Part shown: positions 52,556-63,963 of the stretch, in pieces
How positions within the stretch are numbered: position 1 is the first letter of the stretch
Layout: the number at the start of each line of letters is the position of its first letter
Assembly (NCBI RefSeq): GCF_900343155.1
Contig: NZ_OUNG01000001.1
Span: 248,001 to 312,000, forward strand
Reading direction: 5' to 3'
Source: Lactimicrobium massiliense
GTDB lineage: Bacteria; Bacillota_I; Bacilli_A; Erysipelotrichales; Erysipelotrichaceae
Length of the DNA: 64,000 nucleotides
Notes under the pieces: model-generated
What the model was told of the DNA's origin: nothing
Databases searched by the model: none
What the model saw: only the letters and a program-made list of their open reading frames with translations
Position numbers and translations under genes: made by a program

Positions 52556-53280
52556 GCCTATAAGGCTTTATTACTAGCCAGCGTCTTAAGGCGCTGGCTT
52601 TCGCATCTTCAATGTTCAAGCCACGATTGCAGTTTAACTCTCTCGCATGCCCGTTAAACGGGCTCTTTTACTCATGACTTCGCTGTTGTCTTCCGATTCG
52701 GATTCGGCTTTCTGTTTTCTTTATCCTCTCCGAATGGATCTTCATATTCCTTTACGCTTAACTTATCTTTTGCGATATCTGCGCTTTCCTGTTCACGGAT
52801 ATATTTGCGTATTGTGGATTCATTGATCCCTACTGTGCTCACATAGTATCCTTCCGCCCAAAAATGTCTGTTCCCATATTTGTATTTCAGGTTCGCATGC
52901 TTATCAAATATTTCAAGCGAGGACTTTCCTTTGATGTATCCCATGATCTGTGATACAGAGTACTTTGGAGGGATACTCAAAAGAAGATGTACGTGGTCGG
53001 GCATCAGATGCCCTTCCAGAATCTCCACTCCTTTGTATTTGCACAGCAGTTTTATGATATCCCGGATATCTGGGCGCAGTTGATTATAAATTACTTTTCT
53101 TCTATACTTCGGAGTGAACACGACATGATATACGCAGTAATATTTCGTGTGAGCTAATGAATCATATTTGTTAGACAATATGTAAAAGCCCTCCATTAAC
53201 TTGTGTGTTCGAGGATCATCCCGCAAACTTGTTATTGGCTAAAAAAGAGATGGGGAAGTTGCCTCATCCAAGAAAGGAAG
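52527..53280 (-). mobile_element. IS200/IS605-type element (boundaries approximate)
   Basis: A Y1 transposase gene flanked on its 3' side by hairpins: CCGCCCG-TAAAA-CGGGCGG (52527-52545), AAGCC/GGCTT, AGCCAGCG/CGCTGGCT and GCCCGTT/AACGGGC (near 52650). IS200-type ends are such hairpins and leave no target duplication, so the exact ends cannot be fixed by eye. The upstream end must lie in the short gap before the IS110-type gene. Confidence 0.55.
52672..53196 (-). CDS. tnpA: IS200/IS605 family transposase TnpA
   Basis: About 174 residues. It is a Y1 HUH single-strand transposase: YYCVYHVVFTPKYRRKV start, the HUH motif LMPDHVHLLLSIPP (about 66-79), KGKSS, and the catalytic tyrosine region WAEGYYVSTVG (about 115-125). 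The start at 53196 (MEGFYILSNKY) is preferred. The protein is slightly longer than the usual 130-155 residues, with a charged tail. No TnpB gene is next to it. Confidence 0.92.
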   Translation of the reverse strand: MEGFYILSNKYDSLAHTKYYCVYHVVFTPKYRRKVIYNQLRPDIRDIIKLLCKYKGVEILEGHLMPDHVHLLLSIPPKYSVSQIMGYIKGKSSLEIFDKHANLKYKYGNRHFWAEGYYVSTVGINESTIRKYIREQESADIAKDKLSVKEYEDPFGEDKENRKPNPNRKTTAKS

Positions 53281-53288
53281 GCCTTTAC

Positions 53289-54416
53289 ATGATAGCATAC
53301 GTTGGAATTGATGCACACACTACAAACTACACTCTCTCGACTTATCTTGAAGGATCAGCAGCACCTGTGAATACAAATACCTATTCCCCTTCTGTTTCCA
53401 ACATCGTAAACTACTGCAAGGGGATCAGGAAAAAGATTGGAAATGATACAGAGATCGTTGTTGGATATGAAGCTGGCTGCCTTGGATTTAAACTGAAGCG
53501 TGATCTTGAGGAGAAGGGTCTTACCGTAAAGATCCTTGCCCCTGCTTCGATTACCGGAACAGAAATAAACAGACGGCGCAGGAAGAAAACAGACAAGCGG
53601 GATGCCGAAGCGATTGCCAGATCGCTGAAGAATCATGAATACAGCGAAGTCTATACCCCCGATGAAGAAGATGAATCAGTACGTGATTTCATCCGTATGC
53701 AGCAGGATCACAAGAAGCAGCTCAGAGTGATCAAACAGCAGATCTGTGCGTTTACCACCAGGCATGGATACAAATTTACGGATGGCAGGAATTACTGGAC
53801 AAAGAAACATCTGAAATGGCTTAAGGAGCTTCCTCTGGAGGGGATCAATAAGGAAACACTGGATTCTTACCTGCTGTCATATGAAACAGTTTCTGATCGA
53901 ATTGAGCAAATGAACAAACGCATTGAAGAAATTGCTGAAACGGATAAATATCGGGAAGCAGTTCACAAGCTGATCTGCTTTAAGTCAGTGAAAGTACTTA
54001 CCGCTCTGGCTGTGATTGTGGAAATCGGAGATTTCACCAGATTCGTTAAAGCAAAGAACTTTGCGGCATTTCTGGGCCTGGTTGCAGGAGAACTCAGCAG
54101 CAGCGATGATCAGAATCAGACGGGAATAACAAAACAGGGAAACACCTTTTTGAGAAAACTACTTGTCGAATGTGCACAATCTTTCTCAAGGGCATCATCT
54201 GGCAAAAGTGAAGCACTGAAGAAGCGGCAGGAAGGCAACGCTCCTGAAGTCATTGCATATGCGGACAGAGCGAATGAACGCCTCCGGAAGAGATACATGC
54301 GTCTTGTGCTGCACAATCGAAAGAACCATAACAAAGCAACGGTAGCTATAGCACGTGAGCTGGCATGCTTTATATGGGGAATGATGACAGGCAATATTCA
54401 TACTGTTCTTGCTTAA
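53289..54416 (+). CDS. IS110 family transposase (DEDD recombinase)
   Basis: A 375-residue recombinase. The RuvC-like N-terminal domain starts AYVGIDAHTTNYTLSTY (about 3-19), with GYEAGCLGFKLKRDL (about 60-74) and KTDKRDAEAIARSL (about 102-115, DEDD residues). The C-terminal transposase-20 domain includes FAAFLGLVAGELSS (about 257-270) and a serine-rich active-site area in QNQTGITKQGNTFLR. IS110 enzymes are guided by a structured RNA from their own noncoding end. The ATG with GGAAGG upstream is the start. It is intact. Confidence 0.92.
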   Translation: MIAYVGIDAHTTNYTLSTYLEGSAAPVNTNTYSPSVSNIVNYCKGIRKKIGNDTEIVVGYEAGCLGFKLKRDLEEKGLTVKILAPASITGTEINRRRRKKTDKRDAEAIARSLKNHEYSEVYTPDEEDESVRDFIRMQQDHKKQLRVIKQQICAFTTRHGYKFTDGRNYWTKKHLKWLKELPLEGINKETLDSYLLSYETVSDRIEQMNKRIEEIAETDKYREAVHKLICFKSVKVLTALAVIVEIGDFTRFVKAKNFAAFLGLVAGELSSSDDQNQTGITKQGNTFLRKLLVECAQSFSRASSGKSEALKKRQEGNAPEVIAYADRANERLRKRYMRLVLHNRKNHNKATVAIARELACFIWGMMTGNIHTVLA

Positions 54417-56012: not shown

Positions 56013-56073
56013 CCACCTATCTAACATGAGCGGAAAGCACTTCCTCATCCTGAGGAAATATACTCTGTATTCG

Positions 56074-59032
56074 GGATCACCCCCGCATACGCGGGAAGCA
56101 CCATCCTCCTATTAAAGAAAAGCGGATAGGGCAGGGATCACCCCCGCATGCGCAGGAAGCACCTCTGTCCATGCATCCCACGATGGCTGCCCGATAGGAT
56201 CACCCCCGCATGCGCGGGAAGCACACACGATCTGTAATCCACTTGAAACGGCTTGCAGGATCACCCCCGCATGCGCGGGAAGCACCCATGTATAACTACA
56301 CAATCAGCGGAAAATCCAGGATCACCCCCGCATGCGCGGGAAGCACGCTTCCACAGTGGGAGTCTTGGCCACAAGCCTGGGATCACCCCCGCATGCGCGG
56401 GAAGCACCTTGTGTAATCATACGAATCAGCAAAGATGTTAGGATCACCCCCGCATGCGCGGGAAGCACGGATAGTCCTCATAATAGACAACATTTTTGTG
56501 AGGATCACCCCCGCATGCGCGGGAAGCACTCTGTGATGGCCCAGTAGATGGCAAGAATTGTAGGATCACCCCCGCATACGCGGGAAGTACTTTGACGTTT
56601 TGTTCACATCAGCCTGTGCGTTAGGATCACCCCCGCATACGCGGGAAGTACTGATAAGTGATCGACGCTGTATTGCCTAGCTGAGGATCACCCCCGCATA
56701 CGCGGGAAGTACCAATGGTGCATCCATCGGCAGCTTGTCGGGCAGGGATCACCCCCGCATACGCGGGAAGTACGGATACCATCTGTACTCGTGTGTCTTG
56801 TCCTTAGGATCACCCCCGCATACGCGGGAAGTACCAGAATTATGCCGATGTAATTCACAGCTGGCAGGGATCACCCCCGCATACGCGGGAAGTACTGGTA
56901 GGCTGGGGCAGATATTACGGTCCTATCAGGATCACCCCCGCATACGCGGGAAGTACGCAGAAAAACCCATTTCACGCATTGCTGCGCCAGGATCACCCCC
57001 GCATACGCGGGAAGTACCTGCTGTTTCCGAGTATCCGACAGTGACTGAGAGGATCACCCCCGCATACGCGGGAAGTACGAGCTTTGCTTCTTTGTAACTG
57101 TACTTGTAGTGGGATCACCCCCGCATACGCGGGAAGTACTTGTTGACTTTCTCCAGACTATCCTGATACTCGGGATCACCCCCGCATACGCGGGAAGTAC
57201 ATGACTGACTGCTGGATCATCCGGTCAAGGCTGGGATCACCCCCGCATACGCGGGAAGTACGGGACAACATCCTTCAGCCGGTATTCAGTGCCAGGGATC
57301 ACCCCCGCATACGCGGGAAGTACTAAGGAAGGGGCAGTCTGCACAACTTTCCGGCAGGATCACCCCCGCATACGCGGGAAGTACTTCTGGCCAGGAACGC
57401 ACAGCGGCAGCAGTGGAGGATCACCCCCGCATACGCGGGAAGTACATGACAGGTTGTTTCACTAGGTAAAACTCATGGGGATCACCCCCGCATACGCGGG
57501 AAGTACTGAAAGAACACGACATGACATTTGAGGGATTAGGGATCACCCCCGCATACGCGGGAAGTACTGGATACGGATAATGTGTCAACCGCCAAGAACG
57601 GGATCACCCCCGCATACGCGGGAAGTACGTCATCTGCTTGGTGAATGTGACCGTAGCCTTAGGATCACCCCCGCATACGCGGGAAGTACCCTCATTTAGC
57701 GATGTATCACGTATGGCTTATAGGATCACCCCCGCATACGCGGGAAGTACCAGCTTTTTCAGTACCTCACGCATAGCAGTCAAGGATCACCCCCGCATAC
57801 GCGGGAAGTACGTATATTAAAGCCAAAGATACTAACGGCAACTAGGATCACCCCCGCATACGCGGGAAGTACCGCCGGCCACATCACCGTTCATCTGGAA
57901 ACGCAGGATCACCCCCGCATACGCGGGAAGTACTACTTAATGGTGGCGTCATAAAAGGACAGGTTAGGATCACCCCCGCATACGCGGGAAGTACTACTTT
58001 GCCTTATCAGAGTTGGCCGCTGCATAGGGATCACCCCCGCATACGCGGGAAGTACTTTGCCATTCTTCTGAATAAAGCCGAGCAGGCGGGATCACCCCCG
58101 CATACGCGGGAAGTACCAAGCATCAGCAAAACGAGCGGCATAAAAACAGGGATCACCCCCGCATACGCGGGAAGTACTTCCAGTTCCGATTTCCAGCAGC
58201 ATTGTTGAGGGGATCACCCCCGCATACGCGGGAAGTACCCATCTATCTGACCAAAGATGATGTGGCACATGGGATCACCCCCGCATACGCGGGAAGTACT
58301 TTGCCATTCTTCTGAATAAAGCCGAGCAGGCGGGATCACCCCCGCATACGCGGGAAGTACCAAGCATCAGCAAAACGAGCGGCATAAAAACAGGGATCAC
58401 CCCCGCATACGCGGGAAGTACTTCCAGTTCCGATTTCCAGCAGCATTGTTGAGGGGATCACCCCCGCATACGCGGGAAGTACCCATCTATCTGACCAAAG
58501 ATGATGTGGCACATGGGATCACCCCCGCATACGCGGGAAGTACCCACTCTCTGCCTTCTGCGATTGCGATGCATAGGGATCACCCCCGCATACGCGGGAA
58601 GTACTTCGCTTCCTGGAAAGCAGAGGATTTCAGCATGGGATCACCCCCGCATACGCGGGAAGTACTGAATAAGAGTATTATTGCTGCCCATGAACTGAGG
58701 ATCACCCCCGCATACGCGGGAAGTACGATGGGAGATGGGACCGGCGTCCGAAAAGCAGAGGATCACCCCCGCATACGCGGGAAGTACACGAGGATTTCGA
58801 GCAGAATTATGCCGATGTAAGGATCACCCCCGCATACGCGGGAAGTACACCGTGACATGATAATCATCACCAGATGCCATAGGATCACCCCCGCATACGC
58901 GGGAAGTACTTGGCTTTCGATCACAGAATGAAATCTGGTAGGGGATCACCCCCGCATACGCGGGAAGTACTTGTTCCTGGCGAATGTTGGATGAAAATGC
59001 GGGAGGATCACCCCCGCATACGCGGGAAGTAC
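56074..59032 (-). CRISPR. Type I-E CRISPR array, 49 repeats and 48 spacers
   Basis: Repeats are 28 bases on the minus strand: GTACTTCCCGCG, then TATGCGGGGGTGATCC, with the stem CCCGC/GCGGG. Spacers are 33 bases, three of them 34. Counting the constant pyrimidine after each repeat, it equals the usual 29+32 layout of type I-E. The leader-proximal end is on the right, beside cas2; the left-end repeats (1-8) are variant and the second is further mutated, as expected for the old end. Spacers 58056-58271 are repeated in tandem at 58300-58515. Confidence 0.98.
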
Positions 59033-59061
59033 AGATAAAAGATCCCTTCAAATAGGCATTT

Positions 59062-59972
59062 TCAGTTTTCAAATTTGTAAAAAACATTTAGTTTGTTTGA
59101 TAACTGAAAGATCAGCTTTGCATCTTCAAGTGCTCTGTGTGGTACCGTTCCACTGATTCCATACGATTTCAGTGTTGTTTGTAGCTTATAGTTTTCTTGA
59201 AACAGTTTTTCCCTCTTTACTGTCTTAAGCACATCTATAATATCATTGCCAATTCCTTGCATACCGCATTTATGCAGTGCAGTGTTTAAAAAATCCATGT
59301 CAAAACTCAAATTATAGCCAACCAAAATATTATTACCGATAAAGTCACAAAATTCCTGTAACGCAGACTGAATATCCATTCCTCCTTTGAGCATATCATC
59401 GGTGATGCCGGTCAGTCCACTAATAACCGGAGGAATTGTTTCATGAATATTGACAAGTGCGTTATAAAACGTTTCCGTTATTCCATCCCATTTTACTGCA
59501 CCAATCTCAATAATCTTATCACGTTCCGGATGCAGTCCCGTAGTCTCAAGATCGATGACAACATAACCTTTGTTTTGACGTAGGCTATGATCACTAACTT
59601 GGCGTTTGGCAAAGGAAGAATTTCTCGCATGATGTATATGTGAAGCAGTGCTAAATCCGTTCCGCAGAACATTCTCCTCCTCATCAGGCTTTTCTTTCAA
59701 AGGCACTAGTACCAGAGGAATACCATCCGAGTCCACAACTGATCTGTCAGCATTAATTGTCAAAAAGTCATACCCAATTTCATTCCTGCTGGCATAGCTC
59801 AGCGTTGCCTCTCCTTCTCCAACACTGTTGCAAATTCTCTCCCACAGATATTGACGCACACGCGTACTAAAGTTACCTACATATACTCCAGTAGCAATTT
59901 CCTGCATCCATTTTGTCAGGTCACCCCGCAGGGAAGCCGGCACTTTTTTCAGAGTAATTACAGTCATTGGCA

Positions 59973-59973
<1 letters not shown>
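59062..59973 (-). CDS. cas2: Cas2 fused to a DnaQ-like 3'-5' exonuclease (type I-E)
   Basis: A 303-residue protein. Residues 1-95 are type I-E Cas2 (MTVITLKKVPASLRGDLTKW, GVYVGNFSTRVRQYLWERI), part of the Cas1-Cas2 integrase. A linker (about 95-135) leads to a DEDDh exonuclease: IDLETTG (Asp141, Glu143), GYNLSFDMDFL (about 218-228), and HRALEDAKL (His and Asp near 280-285). All catalytic residues are present. Such fusions are known in a few type I-E systems, for example in Streptococcus thermophilus; the exonuclease trims new spacers to size. The ATG shares one base with the cas1 stop (TGATG). Confidence 0.96.
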
Positions 59974-61551
<1,578 letters not shown>

Positions 61552-61552
61552 A

Positions 61553-62287
61553 TCATTCCTCCACCCAGGCAAACACGTCATGCTCCGTCTCTTCATCTTT
61601 ATATGATGGGTTATCAATATTGATCAAAGTCTTGCTTTCCTGCCTGAGCAGATACCTGCGTCCTTCCCAGGAAAAAGAGTCAACATAATCTCTACGGTAA
61701 TTTCCTTTTCTTTCTGGAATCAGGCAAGCATCTGCGTGCAGAGAAAGAGAAACTGACTTTGTTTTTCTATGCTTTCTCTGGTACCAGGAGGAAGCCTGCC
61801 ACGGCTGCTGATGCAAGGCAGTAATCACATCAGTATTGATACATCCCATGAAAAAGTCAGCAGGCACCGGATATGATCTTCTGCCCATATAGAGCGGAAA
61901 ATATGGATGCTGTAAAGCTTCGGCAATCTCATCAATCCAGTCATCGTCTTCATGTCCGACCGCTACAACGAAAAGCGCATCCTCCAGATAATATCTCTGG
62001 GTAACGTAAGTTCTGTCCAGAACCACTGGTTCTGTATTATTCTTGTATTTATGTGCCGTCTGGTAATCTTTGCTCATTGCTCCAGGCTGATCTATGCGTA
62101 CAGCAAAATGAAGCTGATTCAATCTGCGGATCTTTGCATCAGAATCTCTGCGATAGCCAAAAGCTGCCGCAATCATCCCAATAACAGCACTTTTTGAAGG
62201 ATACAAGTCTGTATGACGGGTTTCAAAATGAGATGAAGACCCCCAGGACTGCAGGGGTCCTGAAAATTTCAGTAAAATGGTCTTCAT
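61553..62287 (-). CDS. cas5e: Cascade subunit Cas5e (CasD)
   Basis: A 244-residue RAMP protein that caps the 5' handle of the crRNA in Cascade. The start ILLKFSGPLQSWGSSSHFETR is the Cas5 signature, followed by TDLYPSKSAVIGMIAAAFG (about 26-44) and the YMGRRSYPVPADFF segment (about 143-156). It follows cas7 by 13 bases. Confidence 0.95.
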   Translation of the reverse strand: MKTILLKFSGPLQSWGSSSHFETRHTDLYPSKSAVIGMIAAAFGYRRDSDAKIRRLNQLHFAVRIDQPGAMSKDYQTAHKYKNNTEPVVLDRTYVTQRYYLEDALFVVAVGHEDDDWIDEIAEALQHPYFPLYMGRRSYPVPADFFMGCINTDVITALHQQPWQASSWYQRKHRKTKSVSLSLHADACLIPERKGNYRRDYVDSFSWEGRRYLLRQESKTLINIDNPSYKDEETEHDVFAWVEE

Positions 62288-62300
62288 AAAGTCTCACTTT

Positions 62301-63365
62301 CTAAAGCAGAGTTCGGATCTGATCCAGATCTTCCAGCAAATCTGCAAGACTCTGCTCTTCCTTTCCTTCAGGTTTTTCTCTGAGATCAGTATCTGTCAGA
62401 TACAAAGTAAGAACAGGCTTTGAAACGTATTTTTCAGTTTTTTCCAGTTCAGAAAACATTTTTTCCACTGATTTTTCGGCATACCCATCTGTTGATTTAA
62501 CGGGTTTTTCAAAAGCACTGACAAGGTTAACAGGTCTGTCCGTTCTGACATTGATCATGATTGCCTCTGGAAGTGTTGTGTTGGCAAATGTATTAATCTT
62601 TCCGGTCGGCATCGAATTCGAGAATGCTTCCACAAACAGCTTTAATGCGTTGATCGTGTTATCCACATTTCCAAGCTGCCTGTTCAGCTCATGAACAGCG
62701 ACATTGGCATAGCGATACAGTGTCTCCGAATTATACTCAATCGTGCCAAGCATGCCTGCACCTGCGTTATCTGCGGGTGACAAATCATCCATTGCAGTGT
62801 AGTAATCAAATTCTGTTTCAACCGCATGTGTGGAAATAGCATGTGCAACCTGTGCTGAGGCATCTTCATTCAGCGTAGGATCATCTGCAACCATCCTTCC
62901 AAAAAGAGCAATATCAATATCCGGATTATCTTTCAGTATTGCCTGTAAAACCTTTTTGTCTTTTTCTCCATGCAAAGCTGCAGTTGCCAGGTTCTCAGCC
63001 TGCTCTTTGCCAAGGAAAAACAAAGCCTTTGCAATTCTGGCCTTTTTATCCGTTGAAATACCGGCATCATTTAACGCCTTTTCAGCAAGATCCATTGCTT
63101 TTGCACTATCGACAGTGCTGTCCTGTTCCTGTATTGCTTCGGCGACATATTCTACAATATGCTTCGTGCGGACGCCCAGTGTTGCAGCGCTATGATCTTC
63201 AAAGTACTGTCGCATTGCACGCTTCCACGCCTGCGAACTGACCCTCGCCCTTCTGACACCTCCATACTGCGCTGTCTTTGGACTTCCTGTATCATCACGG
63301 TTGATATTGGAAGACGGTAATGTCTGAATTGCATGAATGTCAAGATAAACTCTCTGATTAGTCAT
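62301..63365 (-). CDS. cas7e: Cascade backbone subunit Cas7e (CasC)
   Basis: A 354-residue RAMP protein that forms the six-unit backbone along the crRNA. It has VYLDIHAIQTLPSSNINRDDTG (split as VYLDIHAIQTLPSS and NINRDDTG, about 6-27), GVRRARVSSQAWKRAMRQYF (about 35-54), and the PTGKINTFANTTLPEAI segment (about 253-269). It overlaps the cse2 gene by eight bases. Confidence 0.97.
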   Translation of the reverse strand: MTNQRVYLDIHAIQTLPSSNINRDDTGSPKTAQYGGVRRARVSSQAWKRAMRQYFEDHSAATLGVRTKHIVEYVAEAIQEQDSTVDSAKAMDLAEKALNDAGISTDKKARIAKALFFLGKEQAENLATAALHGEKDKKVLQAILKDNPDIDIALFGRMVADDPTLNEDASAQVAHAISTHAVETEFDYYTAMDDLSPADNAGAGMLGTIEYNSETLYRYANVAVHELNRQLGNVDNTINALKLFVEAFSNSMPTGKINTFANTTLPEAIMINVRTDRPVNLVSAFEKPVKSTDGYAEKSVEKMFSELEKTEKYVSKPVLTLYLTDTDLREKPEGKEEQSLADLLEDLDQIRTLL

Positions 63366-63963
63366 TTGTACTTTCCTCCTTATTCAGATTATTTTCCTGC
63401 TGATCATTAATATTTGCATAGTAATCCTGTGCCCAACGGAAGCATACCGAACGCCGGTATCCTTTCTGCCAGTTATACAAATCATTTGCAAGACGTCCAA
63501 AATTCACGGTCATCACATATTTGCTCTTTACAATCTTAAGCAACTGTCGCAGATGATGCGTCATCTCAGCATACGTATCTGCAGTAATCAGCGCATTGAA
63601 TCTGCGGTCAAGCGCTTCTGAATCATCAGCTTTTCTTCCACTGCGGAGCGATGCGCCGACCGAATGCTCATAAGAACTGTCTGAAATGACGGAAGATGAA
63701 CCCTGCATGCACATTGCATACAGCTGCAATGCTGTAAATACAGCAGACTCCTCTTTTGTTTCTTTTCCGTTTCTGCTGAGAAATTCCGACGGAATGTTTG
63801 CAAGCAGAATCGGCCAAACATCTCCAGCATCTGACAGCGGTTTGCCAATAGAATTTCTCAGCCTGGCCAGGTTTGCAGCTTTATGTGCATCATTTTCCAG
63901 CTGCGAAATGATGCGGATTGTCACTTGTCCTGCAGATTTTCTGATGGTATTTGTCTCTGACAT
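63358..63963 (-). CDS. cse2: Cascade small subunit Cse2 (CasB)
   Basis: A 201-residue all-helical subunit that bridges the belly of Cascade and stabilises the target strand. The segments KAANLARLRNSIGKPLSDAG (about 32-51), LDRRFNALITADTYAEMTHHL and FGRLANDLYNWQKGYRRSV with a Trp-Ala-Gln-Asp end (FRWAQDYY) fit Cse2. GGGAGG precedes the ATG. Confidence 0.94.
   Translation of the reverse strand: MSETNTIRKSAGQVTIRIISQLENDAHKAANLARLRNSIGKPLSDAGDVWPILLANIPSEFLSRNGKETKEESAVFTALQLYAMCMQGSSSVISDSSYEHSVGASLRSGRKADDSEALDRRFNALITADTYAEMTHHLRQLLKIVKSKYVMTVNFGRLANDLYNWQKGYRRSVCFRWAQDYYANINDQQENNLNKEESTND

Follow-up and report, generated by a model that had tools for sequence, protein, structure and literature searches.

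In the type I-E CRISPR array of Lactimicrobium massiliense, the base that follows each repeat is a C or a T, and we propose that this pyrimidine is the third base of the PAM, 5'-AAY-3', which would be brought into the array together with the spacer. We put the probability of this reading at about 0.94. The evidence for it comes from sequence: the bias in the array itself, the AA found before the retained pyrimidine at targets matched by its own spacers and by those of close relatives, an intact cas operon, and the presence in Cas1 of residues that bind a TT PAM strand. Hereafter, the window denotes the whole 64,000-nt stretch of DNA that was analysed.

The array and the adjacent cas operon

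The array runs on the minus strand from 59032 down to 56074 and contains 49 copies of a 28-nt repeat and, between them, 48 full spacers, of which 45 measure 33 nt and three 34 nt. The repeat unit is GTACTTCCCGCGTATGCGGGGGTGATCC, with a variant beginning GTGCTTCCCGCGCATGCGG toward the old end, and its palindromic form (stem CCCGC...GCGGG) together with the 33-nt spacers fits the type I-E range (28-29 nt for repeats, ~32-33 nt for spacers). At the old end (window 56135-56529) the repeats switch to units beginning GTGCTTCCCGCGCATG, and beyond these lie spacer 49 and half of a decayed repeat (56025-56073). This last spacer is 33 nt long, begins with C and lies at 56073-56041 (minus strand), and the remnant of the 50th repeat, GTGCTTTCCGCTCATG, ends the array at 56040-56025 (minus strand). 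A tandem duplication of four repeat-spacer units is present at window 58028-58543, where spacers 9-12 have been copied as spacers 13-16.

When we recounted the base after each 28-base repeat on the minus strand, we found that 25 of the 48 spacers start with T, 23 with C and none with a purine, the same figures as in the original prediction. Its further claim that this bias would be improbable even without the duplicated units was borne out as well: with the 49th spacer included and spacers 13-16 removed as copies of 9-12, all 45 distinct spacers begin with a pyrimidine (25 T, 20 C, 0 purines; p = 2.2e-14, the null being the pyrimidine fraction of 0.497 at the remaining spacer positions). Spacer positions 2-12 and the last eight show nothing comparable, and the restriction thus covers a single base.

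In Escherichia coli the type I-E PAM is AAG or AWG, and its G is retained as repeat base 29. None of the 45 distinct spacers begins with G, as an E. coli-like AAG would require. The prediction had described the present array as departing from the E. coli rule; the base is indeed a different one (Y rather than G), but the rule is not, since in both systems the third PAM base is kept at the repeat-spacer border. The two systems also differ in the end of the repeat (ATAAACC in E. coli, GTGATCC in the window) and in Cas2, which in E. coli is a separate protein without a DnaQ domain.

The cas genes beside the array lie on the minus strand. Closest to it is a cas2e-dnaQ fusion (59062..59973), which joins PF09707 (residues 3-87) and the DEDDh exonuclease domain PF00929 (residues 138-289) in one reading frame, followed by cas1e (59973..60908), cas6e (60916..61617; PF08798), cas5e (61553..62287; PF09704), cas7e (62301..63365; PF09344) and cse2, or cas11e (63358..63963; PF09485). 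As cas8e and cas3 come right after cse2, just outside the window (L157), the type I-E operon (cas3-cas8e-cse2-cas7-cas5-cas6e-cas1-cas2) is complete. Matches to NCBIfam include TIGR03638 (Cas1e), TIGR02547 (Cse1) and TIGR01873 (Cas2e), and by gene content we identify the locus as a full type I-E system in which Cas2 is fused to DnaQ. The first repeat begins 29 bp past the cas2-dnaQ stop codon (window 59033-59061); across 61 related loci (L237-L316) this distance has a median of 29 bp and is at most 60 bp in 54. With a gap this short, any longer leader or promoter would have to lie inside cas2-dnaQ, or else the array would be transcribed by read-through from the operon. Elsewhere in the window (52672-54416), an IS200-type Y1 transposase gene on the minus strand overlaps an IS110-type transposase gene on the plus strand by ~20 bases.

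A search of PDB sequences placed Megasphaera Cas1 and the full-length Megasphaera Cas2-DEDDh best or second-best among the matches to the window proteins (Cas1, E = 1e-142; Cas2-DnaQ against chain 8fy9_A of PDB 8fy9, E = 2e-88 over its full length). The PAM-pocket residues of the window Cas1, Y124, G146 and Y169, align with Megasphaera Tyr126, Gly148 and Tyr171. Among 81 related Cas1 proteins, the first of these is conserved in 81, the second in 80 and the third in 79. In a tree of these proteins, the nearest relative of the window Cas1 (74% identity) comes from a goat-ileum Lachnospiraceae MAG.

Protospacers and their flanks

In the collections searched, exact targets were found for two window spacers only, and both have AA directly before the base that the array retains. 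Spacer 9 (58483..58515, with its copy at 58239-58271; minus strand) matches a phage contig (L335/G273) at 33/33 bases with the flank ACAA/C, where the slash precedes the first base of the protospacer, and spacer 28 (57324..57356, minus strand) matches both G273 and a second phage contig, G274, at 33/33 bases with the flank GTAA/T. Both are IMG/VR contigs that were reached through homologous phage genes. A third flank could be read within the array, where the start of spacer 4 (58788..58820, minus strand) is identical over 19 nt to the end of spacer 36 (56835..56867, minus strand). As spacer 36 extends 5' of this overlap, it displays the flank of spacer 4, which is GTGAA/T; the 19-nt overlap, searched as an exact pattern, had no match in viral contigs. 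Near-exact protospacers in G274 gave AGAA/C for spacer 8 (58544..58576, minus strand; 30/33) and CGAA/T for spacer 47 (56163..56196, minus strand; 30/34). Tabulating the bases before the protospacers, as had been suggested from the array alone, therefore gave AA/C or AA/T for spacers 9, 28, 4, 8 and 47, and the prediction that the PAM ends in a pyrimidine kept in the array holds at the two exact targets, where AAY occurs with the matching third base. An AAN-type PAM whose third base is kept in the array is thus found at these five spacers and in relatives of the system.

Other near matches were less uniform. The best match of spacer 27 (30/33) has GA in place of AA (CGGA/T), and that of spacer 7 (31/33) has TA (CCTA/C), with AA at another match (30/33, CCAA/C). 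For spacer 5, the best homologue matches 27/33 and is flanked by CC, and AA occurs in some homologues only. As the matched phages are relatives of the sampled invader rather than the invader itself, their flanks may have drifted or escaped. At the homologous phage sites of spacers 7, 8 and 47, flank variation is mostly confined to one base: position -1 is A at 41/41 sites for spacer 7, and position -2 is A at 21/23 sites for spacer 8, in each case homologous sites and not independent observations. This pattern fits an AA in the phage from which the spacers were taken.

Spacers 5, 7, 8, 9, 27, 28 and 47 all point to one phage family, and spacers 5 and 7 match homologues of a single SNF2-like helicase gene (in G273, G274, Dulem virus 35 and sister-species prophages). 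A search of the host's own genome outside the array gave no second match at E <= 0.02. We rejected two sets of candidate targets. Plasmid matches consisted of many pieces spread over the query, a pattern typical of CRISPR arrays from other bacteria that align by their repeats and not of targets, and the matches of spacer 3 (27-28/33; flanks TG, CA and GA) fall in a bacterial chromosomal region beside a rhomboid-like gene (L046) and were taken as coincidence.

We observed the same first-base pattern in related systems. Four genomes of the same family have 46/54 (G176), 34/36 (G072), 33/36 (G270, two arrays) and 26/26 (G272) distinct spacers that start with C or T, with one doubtful repeat from outside the array counted in for G176; the Cas2-DnaQ protein is present in G176, G072 and G270. 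Both exact protospacers of G072 have AA/T. One spacer of G176 (G176_9) begins with G, and its exact protospacer has AA/G, so that array and target agree even in this exceptional case. A genome scan based on a Cas1 alignment recovered 80 loci, 66 of which have arrays, and under a strict spacer parse 1,599 of the 1,657 distinct spacers in these 66 arrays (96.5%) begin with C or T. The remaining ~3.5% that start with a purine indicate that Y is a strong preference and not an absolute rule.

For members of this group in Streptococcus and Lactococcus, we compared protospacers in named phages (matches of at least 31/33, n = 13). AA precedes the spacer in 12/13 of these and in 6/6 of the exact matches, and the target base equals the first base in the array in 12/13. 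In related systems as a whole, AA precedes 9/9 exact non-self protospacers, and it is also displayed by 6/6 overlapping spacer pairs among 1,965 spacers (the pair of spacers 4 and 36 and five others).

Three further observations concern related loci. The oldest spacer of G272 (L195, G272:C22; array L137) has a 33/33 match in its own genome with the flank AC/T rather than AA, as if the PAM had been lost or had never been present. At a locus of Nocardia vaccinii (L312), for which no DnaQ fusion was detected on Cas2, the 36 distinct spacers comprise 13 with G and 23 with C or T as first base, so the third base appears mixed. Two sequences labelled 'Bacteriophage sp.' (L040, L041; MT835722.1, MT838183.1) contain type I-E-like CRISPR repeats and are possibly bacterial contigs, possibly phage-borne arrays.

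Origin of the retained base

The closest studied counterpart of the window proteins is the Megasphaera trimmer-integrase, Cas1-Cas2/DEDDh. The accessible part of the report on it (PMC10284694; PDB 8fy9-8fyd) describes a prespacer strand that ends in a TT PAM, with AA opposite, held by Cas1 Tyr126, Gly148 and Tyr171. The window system shares these PAM-binding residues, and a TT on the integrating strand corresponds to its AA PAM; in the same part of the report the PAM is treated as TT/AA, and we found there no discussion of the retained base. Drawing on that work, we propose that a prespacer would be selected with AAY on one strand and RTT on the other, that Cas1 would sequester the TT while DnaQ trims both ends by a ruler, and that the TT would be taken off after half-site integration. 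The purine then remaining at the new 3' end would attack the leader-distal border of the repeat, and Y would appear as base 29, a position that can equally be assigned to the repeat as its final base or to the spacer as its first. On this model, Cas1-Cas2 would favour a purine at the 3' end during acquisition, with Y on the opposite strand, and selection for interference-competent spacers may strengthen this bias.

The alternative that fares best, although we judge it unlikely, is that the PAM proper is AA only, with the next base free in the target and C or T enriched by selection for good interference instead of at acquisition. A study of Gardnerella vaginalis names the PAM as AA (PMC3559282), and rare purine starters that have AA do occur, such as G176_9. 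It differs from the explanation that we prefer only in the step at which the retained base is chosen, but a pyrimidine in 45/45 spacers of the window and in 96.5% of the 1,657 in related arrays would demand very strong filtering after acquisition, and in E. coli the third base is fixed at acquisition.

It has also been asked whether the C or T belongs to the repeat, a question that the Gardnerella authors left open (PMC3559282). In such a case the pyrimidine would be a polymorphic final position of a 29-base repeat, passed on from the adjacent repeat at each duplication and unrelated to the target. C and T show mild clumping along the array of the window (permutation p = 0.019) and along that of G176 (p = 0.018), as copying would produce, but no significant clumping was found when ~70 related arrays were pooled (permutation p = 0.09). 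A copied C or T would be expected to agree with the target about half the time, whereas we observed agreement in 12/13 Streptococcus and Lactococcus protospacers, in three exact non-self matches of other relatives, the AA/G case among them, and for spacers 9 and 28. Given this high agreement, which extends to the exception, and the lack of pooled clumping, we reject copying as the main cause and consider it very improbable. Chance or base composition can be dismissed outright, as the bias has p = 2e-14 against the array's own composition and recurs in 66 relatives.

Published type I-E systems and narrowing to C or T

With a PAM of AAY taken as the preferred reading, the window joins several described systems. 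In the type I-E system of Gardnerella vaginalis, a 2012 study gave the PAM as AA and found C or T at the start of 97.5% of the spacers (PMC3559282). Like the window, that system has a 28-nt repeat, 33-34-nt spacers and AA directly upstream of protospacers, and two Gardnerella loci (L251, L259) have the same Cas2-DnaQ architecture; the host and the spacers differ. AAY was found upstream of protospacers for the Ldbu1 type I-E system of Lactobacillus casei (PMC3496567), and AAT was functional for Cascade binding by the L. salivarius I-E system in a cell-free assay (PMC11288051). Both systems are from other genera than the window, and the portions of these two reports that were accessible contain no analysis that we could find of retention of Y in the array. 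AAY is also listed for Gardnerella and L. casei (PMC4246573), and Vink et al. assign AAC to Bifidobacterium and AAT to Lactobacillus and, for AAG, discuss last repeat bases that derive from the PAM (PMC8482600). C/T-starting spacers with AAY are the usual, published state for type I-E systems in Bacillota and Actinomycetota (PMC3559282, PMC3496567, PMC4246573). As an AAY PAM with C/T starters was already published for Gardnerella, and AAY for L. casei, the window adds one further member; what is new here is this additional member and a survey of repeated narrowing of Y to C only or T only.

In that survey, some arrays start almost exclusively with C (L286, 30/30; L288, 25/26; L277, 60/64; L299, 15/15) and others almost exclusively with T (L298, 45/48; L258, 21/22), a skew that exceeds what spacer base composition accounts for. 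On the Cas1 tree, each of the two preferences requires at least three label changes. At Cas1 position 291 (window numbering), Val tends to accompany a C preference and Ile a T preference, a weak association that is uncorrected for phylogeny, and we judged the links between single Cas1 residues and a C or T preference too weak to support a claim. We tentatively suggest, at somewhat less than even odds, that specificity for the retained PAM base can evolve within the Cas1/Cas2-DnaQ type I-E clade, with many members accepting both C and T and several lineages narrowed to C only or nearly T only; the purine at the attacking 3' end might then be read by Cas1, perhaps through its C-terminal cap. Neither the breadth of the C/T rule across the Cas2-DnaQ clade nor its repeated narrowing was found in the accessible parts of the literature cited here.

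The agreement between array and protospacer bases favours, on sequence grounds, a PAM-derived origin for the C or T of Gardnerella-type arrays, and the 2012 question of whether this base belongs to the repeat or to the target is thereby answered with protospacer evidence. Since C-only and T-only arrays exist, the structural basis of how the third base is chosen can be tested by exchanging residues between closely related Cas1 proteins. This type I-E group is common in gut and oral bacteria, and natural arrays would fix its PAM as AAY, knowledge that is needed for the use of these systems or for prediction, and the PAM base would be readable from the array alone.
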